A DNA stretch of 38,952 nt from an uncultured Pelagibacteraceae bacterium (GTDB lineage Bacteria > Pseudomonadota > Alphaproteobacteria > Pelagibacterales > Pelagibacteraceae), in the NCBI GenBank assembly GCA_902517175.1, contig CABYBM010000007.1, positions 1 to 38,952 of the forward strand. Direction: 5' to 3'. Below are positions 2,324 to 21,160 of this stretch, one piece after another. The notes under the pieces are model-generated. The model saw nothing but the letters and a program-made list of their open reading frames with translations, was not told the DNA's origin and made no database searches. Positions within the stretch are counted from its first letter, which is position 1. Each line of letters opens with the position of its first letter. Both the position numbers and the translations under genes were made by a program.

Positions 2324-4507
2324 ATGAAATACACAAAAATAATAAATGTTCTAATATTATTTTTAATTGTGTTTCAATTTACACATTTGAAAGCAGAAGT
2401 AAAACCTACTTTGTTAAGAACAGTTAGTTTAACTAATATTGTAAAATCTCCATCGGATGTGCGATTCAATCCTGATGGAACTAGAATTTTTTTTTCTGAT
2501 TATCGATCTACTAATCATTTATTACAATTTGATGTTGATACCCCTTTTAATATTTCTACAATAGATTTTAATAGTAAAGTAGAATTATTTATTAATGGAA
2601 CTGATGGCTTTCTTCAACCGCAAGGTTTTGAGTTTAATAACGATGGAACAAAAGTTTTTGTTATCAATGATGCAGGTAATTTCCAAGCCAATTTGCTTTC
2701 AGCTCCCTATGATTTTTCAAATCCCACCCGAGTTGCTGATGATGGTTTTAATTTTAAAACAGATCCGGATCCAAATATAAGTAATAACAGAGCTGTTAAA
2801 TTTAATCTTGACGGAACAAAAATGTTTCTTATTGATGTAAGTAGTAATAAACGAGTAGTTGAATTTAATTTATCTACTCCTTATGACACCAGCACAGTAA
2901 CTGAAGGAAATAGTTTTGCAATAAGTGGTACAACAACAGTTCTTCAAGATTTTTCATTTGATGATGATGGAACAAGAATGTATGTAATCGAATCTGGTAC
3001 AAGTCCAGGTGCGAGATTCATCTATGTTTATAAACTAAGTACAGGATTTAACATAACAACAGCAACGTTTGCAGGAAAAGTGCAGCAAGTGTTCGAGGAT
3101 GTAGGAAGTGATGGAACTAATGGTACTCCTCTGGGTATGGGATTCTCCGAAGATGGAATGAAACTTTACCAAGTTACTTACCATTCTGGTACGCAGGGTA
3201 ACCGTGATAGAATTCATGAATACGATTTAAGTTGTCCCTATGGAATTGTAATTTGTGAAGTTGAAACAACATCAGTTATAGGCGCTCAAGTAGAAATTGC
3301 TAAAAATGTTATTCATCAAAATTCATCAACAATATTTAAAAGATTTGAGTGGTTACGAAGAAACGAAAATAGACCAAATTTAAATAGCCATAACTTAAAA
3401 TTAAATATTGATAATCCAATTTTAGCATCCTTAAAAAATGAACTACAATCATCTTTTAAAGATTTTAAATATTCACAGGTATCATTAAAAGCAGAACAAC
3501 CAGCAGAAGATAAAAGAAAATGGTCTCACTGGTCACATGGTGATATTTCATTTGGAAGAGTGGGTGATAAAGCTTCAATTAAGCCAAAAGAAATTACAAC
3601 TAAAGGGATAATGATTGGAGCAGATAAATTAACAAAAAATAAGAATTTTTTTGGATTAGCAGTGAGATACGGTAATGATGATGTTGACATAAAATCTGGA
3701 AATAAAGAAGAATTAAATTCTCAATCTTTATCCTTTAATGTTTATAGCCAATTGCCTATCAATGATAAATCAAATTTAAATGCTCTAGTAGGGGTAAGCC
3801 TCTTAAGCATAGATCAAATGGTTTCTGGGACTGTTACTGGTGAAAGAAATGGAAAACAAATTTATACAGCTTTAAGTTATGAAAGTGAGCAAAGTTACTC
3901 TAAATTTGATATAGTCTCTTATGGTAAAACAGAGTTGGGGATCACACAATTATCTGAATATACTGATTTTGGAACAACAGCCACAAATAATGTTGAGACC
4001 CATGAAAGACTAACTTTTAAAACAGGAAATGCATCTGCTGGCTTTAAGTTTGATAACACTTTGTATATGGATGAAAACAGACTAAGTAGAAATGGATTTC
4101 TAGAGTATGTAATTGATTTTACACCAGATATTGATCATCGTTATAAAAATCACATTGATAATGTGACAATTCAAAATACCATTGAAAGGCATTCATTAAA
4201 TAATATTAAAGGAAATATTGGTTTTGAATTTTTAAAAAAGAGCGGTCATACATTTGCATTAAATTATGAAAGATTTCAAAGTTTAGATAATAGTGCACAC
4301 ACAGATAGTTTGCTTTTAAAATTTGGAAAACAAAAAAATGAAAATACTAATTTTAATGTGATTTATGATCCTTTAAAAAATAATAATACTGAAATCAGTT
4401 ATTTAAAAAATTATGATAATTTTAAATTAAAAGTAAAATCTAATTACGCAATGTATAGTAAAATTCCTGACTACGGTGCAGATATTGAATTTTCGGCAAC
4501 ATTTTAA
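2324..4507 (+). CDS. Secreted surface protein: beta-propeller-like DGT repeats with C-terminal autotransporter-type outer-membrane barrel
   Basis: Signal peptide; repeats FNPDGTRIFF, FNNDGTKVFV, FNLDGTKMFL, FDDDGTRMYV, FSEDGMKLYQ; beta-rich C-terminus ending in aromatic F (DIEFSATF). Confidence 0.75.
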   Translation: MKYTKIINVLILFLIVFQFTHLKAEVKPTLLRTVSLTNIVKSPSDVRFNPDGTRIFFSDYRSTNHLLQFDVDTPFNISTIDFNSKVELFINGTDGFLQPQGFEFNNDGTKVFVINDAGNFQANLLSAPYDFSNPTRVADDGFNFKTDPDPNISNNRAVKFNLDGTKMFLIDVSSNKRVVEFNLSTPYDTSTVTEGNSFAISGTTTVLQDFSFDDDGTRMYVIESGTSPGARFIYVYKLSTGFNITTATFAGKVQQVFEDVGSDGTNGTPLGMGFSEDGMKLYQVTYHSGTQGNRDRIHEYDLSCPYGIVICEVETTSVIGAQVEIAKNVIHQNSSTIFKRFEWLRRNENRPNLNSHNLKLNIDNPILASLKNELQSSFKDFKYSQVSLKAEQPAEDKRKWSHWSHGDISFGRVGDKASIKPKEITTKGIMIGADKLTKNKNFFGLAVRYGNDDVDIKSGNKEELNSQSLSFNVYSQLPINDKSNLNALVGVSLLSIDQMVSGTVTGERNGKQIYTALSYESEQSYSKFDIVSYGKTELGITQLSEYTDFGTTATNNVETHERLTFKTGNASAGFKFDNTLYMDENRLSRNGFLEYVIDFTPDIDHRYKNHIDNVTIQNTIERHSLNNIKGNIGFEFLKKSGHTFALNYERFQSLDNSAHTDSLLLKFGKQKNENTNFNVIYDPLKNNNTEISYLKNYDNFKLKVKSNYAMYSKIPDYGADIEFSATF

Positions 4508-4511
4508 TCTT

Positions 4512-6767
4512 GTGAAATTTATAAAAAAATTAATTTTAATTTTATTATTTATACTTCCAATCTCTAATTCATTTGCAGCTATGGTTACTTTTAACCAAAG
4601 AACTACAGTAGCTGATGGTGGTGACTTTATAGGTGGTATTCATTTTAACACTGATGGAACAAAAATGTTCATTAGTTATTCAGGGGATAGTAGATTTGTA
4701 GATGAATATAATTTAGCCACAGCATTTGATGTTTCTACAAGTAGTTATGCAGGTAATAGTGAAAGGTGCGAATTAGATGTTCTTGGGACTGGCGCTACGA
4801 AAACTAAAAAATTTGATATAGAATTTAGTAGCGATGGATTAAAATTATTTATTGCAGAGGGAATACCAAATAGTGGAGTAGATAAAGACAAGTTATATAG
4901 ATTTGATTTAACCTCACCTTATGATGTTTCAACATGTACATTTTCAGGTAATGCAACATTAAATCTTGAGAGTGGAAATAGTTTACAAAACGAAAGTAAT
5001 GCTGGAAATCGAACAGACTCAAACGGTGGTAGAGAAGATAATCGTCTTCAAGGTTTTGAAATTAATGAAGATGGAACAAAATTATTTATTGTATATCATG
5101 GTGCAGGTTCACAAAAACCAAGATTGTTAGAGTATACACTTTCAACTCCATACGATTTAACGACTATATCTCTTAATCTTAATGCAGGAATAGCACTAGA
5201 TGGTCAAGGAGTTTCTAATCCAATGGGAATGAGATTTAGTCCAAATGGAAAAAGAATTTGGATTAACAGTCATACTAACGGTGCACAAAGAGTAACTCAA
5301 ATTTCACTTGATGTAGCATATTCCACATCCTCATTTACGATAGATGGTTCAGTTTTTACACGAGACTTAAATGGCTCTAATAGTTTTCAACAACCAAGAG
5401 GAATCGCATTTAGTGCAGCTGGTTTAAAATTATATATTGGTACCGATCAAGATAATCCTAGTGATTCAGCAGATCATGTAAATGAACTTGATTTAATTTG
5501 TCCATTTAATATTATTGAAGGCAAATGTCCACCTGTAACAGAAAATAGTGACAGAACTGGAATAGCTATTGCACAAATAGAAGTTGCAACAAGAACTATA
5601 GAACATTCAACGGACACTGCTTTAAATAGATTAAAGTGGATTAGAAGAAACAAAGATAACCAAAACTTAACCAATCTTAATTTAGATTTTAATTTTACCA
5701 ATCAAGTACTTGCCTCTCTAACCAAAGCTGTAAAAACATCAGCCAATAATCAGAATAAACAAGATAAACCGCAAGATATATTTTATTGGAGTGAAGGAAG
5801 TATTGCTGTTGGAAGAGTGGGAGAGACAAATGTTTCTTCATTTAAAAAAGTTAAAACTGATGCAATCACAATTGGAGCAGATAAATTTACCAAAAATAAT
5901 GGTATCAGAGGACTAGCTTTTAGATTTGGTAAGAACGATATTGATGTTGGAACTGCTGGAAGCAATTTAGATACAGATACTTATAATTTGACACATTATA
6001 CATCTTCTCCAATTGAAGATGACACAAAGTTTATAGATACTATCCTTGGAGTAGGTGTCCTTAACTCAGATATTTTGTCAGTGCTTGATGGTAAACGTTT
6101 AGCAGCTAAAAGAAATGGTAAACAAATATATGGAACAATTAAATTAAAAGACGAGATTAAGAAAAATAATTTAATCCTAATTCCTTCAGCACAAATAGAT
6201 CTCGGTTACACTTTATTAGATGATTATCAAGAAAGCGGCACCACTGCTATGAACTTTAAAGAACAAAGTATCCAATCAAGGAATGTGAGACTTTCAATTG
6301 CAGCAGTTGATAAATTAGAAAATAATAAATATAAAATTCGAAAACATGGAAAATTAGAATACAAAGCAAATTTACATCGTTCTTCTAATATAAAATATTC
6401 TTATGTCTCCGATGCAACAAGTGGTGAATTTGATACCAAACTTAATTCAGGTACTTTACACAATATAAATGGTGAATTAGGTATAGATATAATTTTACCT
6501 GATAATTTTAGTATCTTTATAATCTATGAAAGAAATCAAGCTCTAGGAGTAGGGCATACTGATAAAATACATTTAGCGATAGGATACTTACCTAATAAAA
6601 AGACCAACTATGCTTTTAAGTTAGAAGGCTCAGATATGATTGGTTCTGTTTATAAGATTAGTAAAAATATAAATGATTTTGAAATTGATTTTAAATTGAA
6701 CAATAAAGATTTATTAAAACCAAATATCATTGATGAAGCAACAATCAGTTTAAAAAAAGTCTTTTAA
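4512..6767 (+). CDS. Paralog of the preceding surface protein (DGT repeats plus autotransporter-type barrel)
   Basis: Same architecture: FNTDGTKMFI, FSSDGLKLFI, INEDGTKLFI, FSPNGKRIWI, FSAAGLKLYI; shared linker (RLKWIRRNKDNQNLTNLNL) and barrel entry (WSEGSIAVGRVGE); ends VF. GTG at 4512 gives a clean signal peptide (MKFIKKLILILLFILPISNSFAA) and avoids overlap with the upstream gene, so the ORF-track start 4476 is probably too early. Confidence 0.75.
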   Translation: MKFIKKLILILLFILPISNSFAAMVTFNQRTTVADGGDFIGGIHFNTDGTKMFISYSGDSRFVDEYNLATAFDVSTSSYAGNSERCELDVLGTGATKTKKFDIEFSSDGLKLFIAEGIPNSGVDKDKLYRFDLTSPYDVSTCTFSGNATLNLESGNSLQNESNAGNRTDSNGGREDNRLQGFEINEDGTKLFIVYHGAGSQKPRLLEYTLSTPYDLTTISLNLNAGIALDGQGVSNPMGMRFSPNGKRIWINSHTNGAQRVTQISLDVAYSTSSFTIDGSVFTRDLNGSNSFQQPRGIAFSAAGLKLYIGTDQDNPSDSADHVNELDLICPFNIIEGKCPPVTENSDRTGIAIAQIEVATRTIEHSTDTALNRLKWIRRNKDNQNLTNLNLDFNFTNQVLASLTKAVKTSANNQNKQDKPQDIFYWSEGSIAVGRVGETNVSSFKKVKTDAITIGADKFTKNNGIRGLAFRFGKNDIDVGTAGSNLDTDTYNLTHYTSSPIEDDTKFIDTILGVGVLNSDILSVLDGKRLAAKRNGKQIYGTIKLKDEIKKNNLILIPSAQIDLGYTLLDDYQESGTTAMNFKEQSIQSRNVRLSIAAVDKLENNKYKIRKHGKLEYKANLHRSSNIKYSYVSDATSGEFDTKLNSGTLHNINGELGIDIILPDNFSIFIIYERNQALGVGHTDKIHLAIGYLPNKKTNYAFKLEGSDMIGSVYKISKNINDFEIDFKLNNKDLLKPNIIDEATISLKKVF

Positions 6768-15886: not shown

Positions 15887-17710
15887 GTGGAAAGAATTAT
15901 AACAAAATCATTTGCTAGATTAATGGGTCGAGGAACTCACAGGGGTTTCATAACCTATGAGGAATTAAGTAAATCTCTTGGAAAAAGAAATTTATCAGAT
16001 GATAACTTAGCCCAAGCATTTATTCATATTTTAGATGAAAATGTTTCGTTAGTTGAAAAAAAATCTGACTTTAAAGTTTTAAGAAAGAAAGAAAACTCAG
16101 GTAAAGAAGAAGGTAAGATAATAGAGAAAAGTGACGATCCCATCAGGATGTATTTAAGAGAGATGGGTGGTGTGGAACTCCTTTCTAGAGAAGGCGAAAT
16201 TGCAATTGCAAAAAGAATTGAGGCTGGAAAAGATGTGATGTTAATTGCGCTTTCTCAAAGTCCAATAACAGCTCAACAGTTTTTTGAATGGAATGAAAAA
16301 TTACAAAAAGACGAAATTTTAGTCAGAGAAATTATCGATATTGATACAAATTACATGGAAGATGAGTCAACTGGCCCAAGTGCAAAACAAAAAAATGCAG
16401 GAGAGACAGATAAAGAAGAAGGTTCTTCTGATGAGGATGATGACTTCAATCCCACTCTAGCTGCTATGGAAACTGAGATTAAGCCTAAAGTTCTTAAAAC
16501 TGTTCATACACTAACTAAAGAATATACAAAATTAATAAAGTACCAAAAAGAAAAATTAGATTGTGTTTTAAATTCTCAAAATTTTTCATCAGCAAAAGAA
16601 AAAGGTCACGATAAAATTGTTAGTGATATTTTAGAAAATATCAAATCACTTCAATTATCCCCATCAGTTTTAGAGGAGCTTGTTCAAAGGCATTACGTTG
16701 AAAATAAAAAAATTATTTCTTTAGAGGGCAATCTTTTAAGACTTGCAATGGATCATAAAATTCCCAGAAGTGAATTTATAAAATTTTATATTGGAAACGA
16801 GATTAATCCAAATTTAAAAAAATTTCTGGATACTAATAATACATGGAAACAATTTTTTTCAAAAAATAAAGATGAATTCAAAAATATTAGAGAGAGATTA
16901 ATTGAAATTAGTAATAAGCTTGGAATTTCAGTAACAGATTTTAAAAAACAAGTAAGCCGAGTTCAAAAAGGTGAAAAAGAGTCAAGAATTGCAAAAAAAG
17001 AGATGGTTGAAGCTAATTTAAGATTAGTTATATCGATTGCAAAAAAATACACAAATAGAGGTCTTCAGTTTTTAGATTTAATTCAAGAGGGAAATATTGG
17101 ATTGATGAAGGCTGTAGATAAGTTTGAATACAGAAGAGGATATAAATTTTCTACGTACGCAACTTGGTGGATTAGACAAGCAATTACAAGATCCATTGCT
17201 GACCAAGCAAGAACTATAAGAATTCCTGTTCATATGATTGAAACAATTAATAAAATTGTACGAACTCAAAGATTAATTTTAAGCGAATTTGGAAGGGAAG
17301 CCACACCTGAAGAACTAGCTCAAAAATTGCGAATGCCATTAGATAAAGTAAGAAAAGTGTTAAAAATTTCAAAAGAACCAGTATCACTCGAAAAACCTGT
17401 TGGAGATGAAGAAGACAGTAGCTTAGGAGATTTTATCGAGGATACTAAGGCGCTGGCACCGTTAGAGCAAGCTATCAAGTCTAATCTTGGTGAAGCAACT
17501 ACCAAAATATTGTCAACTCTGACACCTAGAGAAGAAAGAGTATTGAGGATGAGGTTTGGTGTAGGGATGAATACCGACCATACTTTAGAGGAAGTTGGAT
17601 TACAGTTTTCGGTAACTAGAGAAAGAATTAGACAAATTGAGGCTAAGGCTCTAAGAAAATTAAAGCATCCAAGTAGATCAAAACAACTTAAAAGTTTTTT
17701 AGAAAGTTAG
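15887..17710 (+). CDS. rpoD: RNA polymerase primary sigma factor (sigma70)
   Basis: Region 2 ([59 protein letters not shown]), region 4 ([14 protein letters not shown]...[30 protein letters not shown]); GTG start. Confidence 0.97.
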
Positions 17711-17714
17711 TACT

Positions 17715-17789
17715 GGGCCGTTAGCTCAATAGTAGAGTACTGCATTGACATTGCAGGGGTAGTTGGAGCGTAACCAACACGGCCCACCA
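17715..17789 (+). tRNA. tRNA-Val (anticodon GAC) with atypical D and T loops
   Basis: Cloverleaf by hand: GGGCCGT/ACGGCCC acceptor, GCTC/GAGT D stem, CTGCA-TTGACAT-TGCAG anticodon arm, GTTGG-AGCGTAA-CCAAC T arm, A discriminator, encoded CCA. Confidence 0.85.
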
Positions 17790-17847: not shown

Positions 17848-17924
17848 GGGCCTGTAGCTCAGTTGGTTAGAGCAGTACACTCATAATGTATTGGTCCCAG
17901 GTTCGAGTCCTGGCGGGCCCACCA
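17848..17924 (+). tRNA. tRNA with CAT anticodon (elongator Met or Ile2/k2C; I lean Ile2)
   Basis: GGGCCTG TA GCTC AGTTGGTTA GAGC A GTACA CTCATAA TGTAT TGGTC CCAGG TTCGAGT CCTGG CGGGCCC A CCA; canonical arms and CCA. Confidence 0.93.
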
Positions 17925-20802: not shown

Positions 20803-21160
20803 GAGCCAGATAAACGACTTGTCGCTTTAACTTGTTAAAGAGGAAAGTCCGGGCTCTACAAGGAAACAGTGCCAGATAATACCTGGCGGGGGCAACCCTA
20901 GGGACAGTGCCACAGAAAATAAACCGCCATAACATGGCAAGGGTGAAAAGGTGTGGTAAGAGCACACCGGTTCTATTGGTAACAATGAACGCTGGAAAAC
21001 CCCACTGGGAGCAAGACTAAGTAGAGATGACATTGTTGTAAAACTAAAAGCCTTCCTTGGCTAGTCATCAGGGTTAGTTGCTTGAGCTTAAGAGCGATCT
21101 TAAGCCTAGACAAATGACAAGTTTAAATGACAGAACCCGGCTTATAGTTTATCTGGCAAA
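20803..21160 (+). ncRNA. rnpB: RNase P RNA (bacterial type A-like)
   Basis: Conserved GAGGAAAGTCCGGGCTC, GGCAACCCTAGGGACAGTGCCACAGAAA, GGGTGAAAAGGTGTGGTAAGAGCACACCG, AGATGACATTGTT, CAGAACCCGGCTTA; terminal helix GCCAGATAAAC (20805-20815) pairs with GTTTATCTGGC (21147-21157). Ends approximate. Confidence 0.95.

Follow-up and report, generated by a model that had tools for sequence, protein, structure and literature searches.

In the standard tRNA elbow, G18 has the U54-A58 pair on one side and purine 57 on the other and makes contact with Psi55, while G19 pairs with C56 (PMC7912444). A valine tRNA gene from an uncultured Pelagibacteraceae bacterium lacks several of the nucleotides that make these contacts, which raises the question of whether it is a decaying gene or a working tRNA whose elbow is held together in another way. 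The gene lies in a stretch of 38,952 nucleotides with a GC content of 28%, which was analysed as a whole and is called the window here. The relevant features of the window are as follows.

17715-17789, plus strand: tRNA-Val(GAC), 75 nt, CCA encoded (ARAGORN, Rfam tRNA, cloverleaf fold)
17728-17734, plus strand: D-loop AATAGTA, with A15 at 17729, A18 at 17731 (replacing G18) and G19 kept at 17732
17747-17749, plus strand: anticodon GAC, decoding GUU and GUC (ARAGORN)
17761, plus strand: A48, opposite A15 at the Levitt position (read from the sequence)
17767-17773, plus strand: T-loop AGCGTAA, with A54 at 17767, G55 at 17768, C56 at 17769, G57 at 17770 and T58 at 17771
15887-17710, plus strand: rpoD, encoding sigma-70 (Pfam Sigma70 regions 1.1-4)
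17848-17924, plus strand: adjacent tRNA(CAT), whose GG and TTCGAGT are canonical (ARAGORN, Rfam)

A valine tRNA with altered elbow loops

The original prediction described fully complementary stems and an encoded CCA, and this description is borne out by the sequence, by the ARAGORN call and by the RNA fold, which is a plain cloverleaf (z = -3.3). The gene scores 53.6 bits against the Rfam tRNA model (RF00005), for which the cut-off is 29, and the adjacent CAT tRNA scores 72.7 bits. Valine identity is indicated by A35 and C36 in the anticodon and by the discriminator A73 at 17786. The positions assigned earlier (A15, A18, G19, A48, A54, G55, C56 and T58) are likewise all correct. Relative to a canonical tRNA, G18 is replaced by A, U55 by G, U54 by A and A58 by U, such that A18/G55 and A54/U58 stand where G18-U/Psi55 and U54-A58 would be expected. 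In contrast, G19-C56 (17732 and 17769) and all stems are intact, and a purine is kept at position 57. The A15-A48 combination is a further oddity of this elbow. No shift in the register of the T stem that would yield a TTC loop was seen, as the GTTGG/CCAAC pairing is fixed.

Comparison with related sequences makes it highly probable that this gene encodes a functional translational tRNA with compensated, alternative contacts between its D-loop and T-loop. In such an elbow, A18 would pair with G55 in place of G18-Psi55, filling the slot of the standard G18 and presumably preserving the L-shape, and A54 would pair with U58 in place of the reverse-Hoogsteen U54-A58 pair. The G19-C56 pair would be unchanged and form the outer surface of the elbow. 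This arrangement should need neither T54 nor Psi55, which fits a genus without the Psi55 synthase TruB (see below), although relatives that carry TruB also have the swap. The loss of these two modifications had been raised as a possibility, and it gains weight from the fact that both target uridines are missing.

Some other natural tRNAs depart from the standard elbow. In tRNA-Pyl and type II mitochondrial tRNAs, GG and/or TPsiC are missing as they are here, but these RNAs lose G19-C56 (PMC7609411), whereas tRNA-Val(GAC) keeps this pair and standard stem lengths. Eukaryotic initiator tRNA shares A54, which in that RNA pairs with A58 (PMC7912444); of the two, only tRNA-Val(GAC) has U at position 58.

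Covariation of positions 18 and 55 and the loss of TruB

Related genomes were grouped as g1 (the genus of the window), g5 to g9 (from the family of that genus) and f2 (a second family of the order). Among the 241 tRNAs that make up the full sets of eight related genomes, 230 are G18/U55, 11 are A18/G55 and none is mixed, where positions 18 and 19 of three Phe/Thr D-loops (AGGAGTA/AGGTAGTA) were assigned by loop length because a leading GG would leave no position 15. The 11 A18/G55 tRNAs represent five isoacceptors: Val(GAC) in g1, g7 and g8, Phe(GAA) in g1, g8 and g9, Thr(GGT) in g1, His(GTG) in g5 and Tyr(GTA) in g7. The original prediction held that the elbow was specific to tRNA-Val(GAC), given its canonical CAT neighbour with TTCGAGT; the neighbour is indeed canonical, but the specificity does not stand, as Phe, Thr, His and Tyr tRNAs of the family and many phage tRNAs carry such elbows. 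The exchange of positions 54 and 58 is confined to Val among the bacterial genomes read, and U54-A58 is kept in the A18/G55 tRNAs for Phe, Thr, His and Tyr.

The same association emerges from searches of the whole order, from which two chance matches that are not tRNAs were set aside. When only a D-arm with A18 was fixed, every tRNA among the matches listed has G55, and when only G55 was fixed, every tRNA among the matches listed has A18. Across 285 genomes of other orders in the class, G55 turned up with a D-arm of this type once, accompanied by G18. The sole apparent G18/G55 mix found outside the order is a tRNA-Pro(CGG) with the T-loop TGCGAAT, from another family of the class (L121, genome G408).

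Sister genera carry canonical orthologs of the A18/G55 isoacceptors. Each of the odd Phe, Thr and His tRNAs is nearest to its canonical counterparts in these genera, and not to the other odd tRNAs, which indicates that the 18/55 switch occurred several times. For the same reason, the idea that all four odd tRNAs (Phe, Thr, His and Val) descend from one ancestor through duplication is unsupported, although the nearest canonical tRNAs of the odd Val are mixed and give a less clear picture than those of the other three. All five A18/G55 isoacceptors have G at anticodon position 34, as do 13 of 32 tRNAs, and this may be chance. Two further tRNAs of congeners are unusual in other ways. Judging by its D-loop (TAATGTTA) and its T-loop (TTAGATT), a tRNA-Thr(GGT) of genome G004 (L251:5162-5236) seems to have U19-A56 where G19-C56 would be expected. 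The only tRNA-Phe of genome G009 (L099:4289-4363; GGGTCTCTGGTG..., T-loop TTCGTTT) is unlike those of its relatives and was perhaps replaced from elsewhere.

A matching rule for positions 18 and 55 is said to have come from laboratory selection. Doyon, Zagryadskaya and Steinberg (J Mol Biol, 2004) reportedly described a ‘specific purine trap’ in E. coli suppressor tRNAs selected from a random library, wherein purine 18 is said to be G if nucleotide 55 is U and A if it is G. The natural tRNAs analysed here follow the rule so reported, and the window’s tRNA-Val(GAC) does so by carrying A18 together with G55. However, the examples here are natural rather than selected in E. coli, are conserved in a genus, and extend over several isoacceptors as well as to phage tRNAs. 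No report of a natural use of the A18/G55 rule was found in the literature searched, where two papers on phage tRNAs say nothing of the D-loop, the T-loop or the elbow. A companion selection (Zagryadskaya et al., NAR, 2003) reportedly yielded G54-A58 and G54-G58 as replacements for the reverse-Hoogsteen pair; A54/U58 is not known to have come from it. A natural G54/G58 is present in the window’s own genome, in a tRNA-Thr(GGT) on contig C8 (L250:266-339) that has the T-loop GTCAGTA and a normal D-loop GG, and also in some viral tRNAs.

The genera that share the odd tRNA-Phe also share a missing enzyme. TruB was absent from all 29 genomes of g1, g8 and g9 searched with TIGR00431 and PF01509, including those assembled as single contigs, and was present in all 14 genomes of g5, g6, g7 and f2. 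In the genera without it, the gene order infB-rbfA-truB-rpsO-pnp has become infB-rbfA-rpsO-pnp (infB and pnp assigned by reading the sequence), and truB is cleanly deleted at the rbfA-rpsO junction, as is evident when loci L237, L238, L231 and L239 are compared with L227 and L230. Because truB is deleted in these genera, Psi55 is probably missing from all of their tRNAs. In a four-protein tree, g1, g8 and g9 fall on one side of a branch with support of 74/74, consistent with a single loss. None of 10 genomes gave a TrmFO match above the cut-off; the hits obtained lie in long open reading frames whose proteins look like MnmG.

These observations make a link between the loss of TruB and the 18/55 swap plausible. 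The loss might even have driven the swap, with an encoded A18-G55 replacing, in some tRNAs, a G18-U55 contact weakened by the lack of Psi55. We regard this proposal, which is compatible with a compensated elbow in a functional tRNA, as tentative and somewhat doubtful. It draws on the coincidence that A18/G55 tRNAs occur in all three TruB-less genera, grouped by the branch noted above, and that among fully read genera A18/G55 Phe is found only in those lacking TruB. On the other hand, the loss is not required for the swap, since A18/G55 also arose in g5 (His) and g7 (Val and Tyr), which carry the enzyme. Moreover, most tRNAs of the TruB-less genomes retain G18/U55, some TruB-less congeners (such as G004) have a canonical tRNA-Phe, and few independent events bear on the question.

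Alternative elbows in phage tRNAs

Contigs predicted to be viral, some of which may be host DNA, provide a much larger sample. A search with G55 fixed and position 18 free identified tRNAs on more than 100 contigs, nearly all of which have A18. Conversely, scans that specified the D-arm only and left position 55 free revealed G55 in 27 of 31 tRNAs with A18 and in none of 143 with G18. We also assembled an unselected set of 1,653 tRNAs from the same contigs, leaving out every tRNA that fits one of the search patterns. In this set, nucleotides 18/55 are G/U in 1,422 cases and A/G in 115, and the 18 mixed cases comprise 16 A/U, many of which are doubtful loop assignments, and two G/G, giving an odds ratio of approximately 5,000.

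Positions 54 and 58 of the unselected set also covary, with 1,576 U/A, 41 A/U, 17 A/A and six G/G; A54 occurs 17 times without U58, and U58 once without A54. The A54/U58 cases span 16 anticodons and 29 contigs, and it is from viral contigs that support for this exchange extends beyond the bacterial Val. Fisher tests of the viral covariation return p-values of 1e-153 and 5e-67, which overstate the evidence because related contigs and tRNAs were treated as independent, although the range of isoacceptors stands apart from these values. The two swaps are found singly and combined, and the combination present in the window (A18 with A54-G55-C56-R-U58) also occurs in viral tRNAs for Asp, Ile, Gly, Met, Glu and Val. 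Viral loci L546, L570, L580, L605 and others carry, together with A18, yet another class of T-loop, AGCRAAG (A54, G55, A58 and G60).

The abundance of these elbows in viral tRNAs, among them a Val(GAC) whose T-loop is likewise AGCGTAA (L418), raises the prospect that the bacterial examples were acquired from phages and then kept. Such an origin would also accommodate the Val of g7, which has the same odd loops even though g1, g7 and g8 do not form a group (this clade is rejected in the tree). Nevertheless, we consider acquisition from phages unlikely. The nearest sampled viral tRNAs share about 80-88% identity, in most cases along a portion of the gene, no sampled viral tRNA matches the Val well, and the Val gene has no match in 50,697 phage records. 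The affinity of Phe, Thr and His to canonical orthologs in sister genera also speaks against it.

A broader reading that the data leave evenly balanced is that A18-G55 and A54-U58 constitute a second way in which nature builds the elbow of cellular and phage tRNAs, in which the two pairs could be exchanged separately and T54 and Psi55 dispensed with. By this reading, the arrangement became established in truB-deleted, SAR11-like bacteria, where most U55 tRNAs would be unmodified and some rewired genetically. An exchange that is natural, repeated and covarying in both free-living bacteria and phages allows the demands on the elbow to be tested directly. With the Psi55 synthase lost in this family too, one can also test whether replacing a base compensates for a modification that is gone. 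In addition, annotation by the TTC-loop consensus under-scores real tRNAs.

Conservation of the gene and its probable role in translation

Searching the window’s genome and 36 congeners revealed the identical 75 nt in 22 genomes, including the window’s own, and nearly identical genes in others. Mean pairwise identity is 0.95 for the gene and 0.37-0.38 for its 60-nt flanks. Among the orthologs from g1, g7 and g8 there are eight distinct sequences. Each forms 21 of 21 stem pairs (100% of cells paired), and 11 pairs have changed on both sides, a result that none of 500 shuffles equalled. A15, A18, G19, A48, A54, G55, C56 and U58 are invariant among these eight, and variants with A57 in the T-loop were found in other congeners. 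A conserved gene between diverged flanks, with compensated stems and an invariant elbow core, indicates that purifying selection acts on a functional tRNA that has this elbow. The rpoD stop codon lies 4 nt upstream, making co-transcription of the two genes possible, and rpoD-like sequence precedes the tRNA in many congeners but not in all.

In f2, g5, g6 and g9, tRNA-Val(GAC) has the same anticodon, the same place in the tRNA set and a similar sequence overall, but carries the G18G19 and TTC loops that the window’s gene lacks. Orthologs with normal loops had been named as grounds for suspecting a sequencing error or private decay. They do exist in other genera of the family, yet here they indicate a lineage-specific switch instead. 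The 22 identical copies, together with the covariation of A18/G55 and A54/U58 in independent tRNAs, also show that the elbow is not a product of chance. The earlier view of a compensated elbow rather than random decay is thus upheld, as both position pairs covary across orthologous, paralogous and phage tRNAs.

A conserved tRNA could still serve outside translation, for example as an aminoacyl donor for the envelope, and so be freed of the constraints imposed by the ribosome and EF-Tu. The staphylococcal cell-wall tRNA-Gly has an unusual elbow, and the second valine tRNA that the original prediction advised looking for, a canonical tRNA-Val(TAC), exists and might decode GUN codons. We nonetheless judge such a role very improbable. 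An A18/G55 tRNA is the only tRNA-Phe in the complete genome G012, and the sole Phe in some of these genomes, so this elbow must serve translation; Thr, His and Tyr tRNAs share it. Furthermore, GUU and GUC account for 371 of the 644 Val codons (58%) in the main open reading frames of the window, and G19-C56 is retained. A pseudogene, private decay or a sequencing error, which a low Rfam score relative to the neighbouring tRNA and a redundant isoacceptor might suggest, is refuted almost to certainty by the occurrence of the identical gene between diverged flanks in another 21 genomes and by its compensated stems.

For reference, a complete congener genome measures 1.34 Mb and has 32 tRNA genes, which, like the low GC content of the window, agrees with Pelagibacterales (SAR11). 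The window also carries a bacterial RNase P RNA of class A at 20806-21160 (289 bits). Two adjacent, overlapping open reading frames at 2324-4507 and 4476-6767 (727 and 763 amino acids) have similar-looking N-terminal repeats and common C-terminal motifs, and likely encode paralogous surface proteins.
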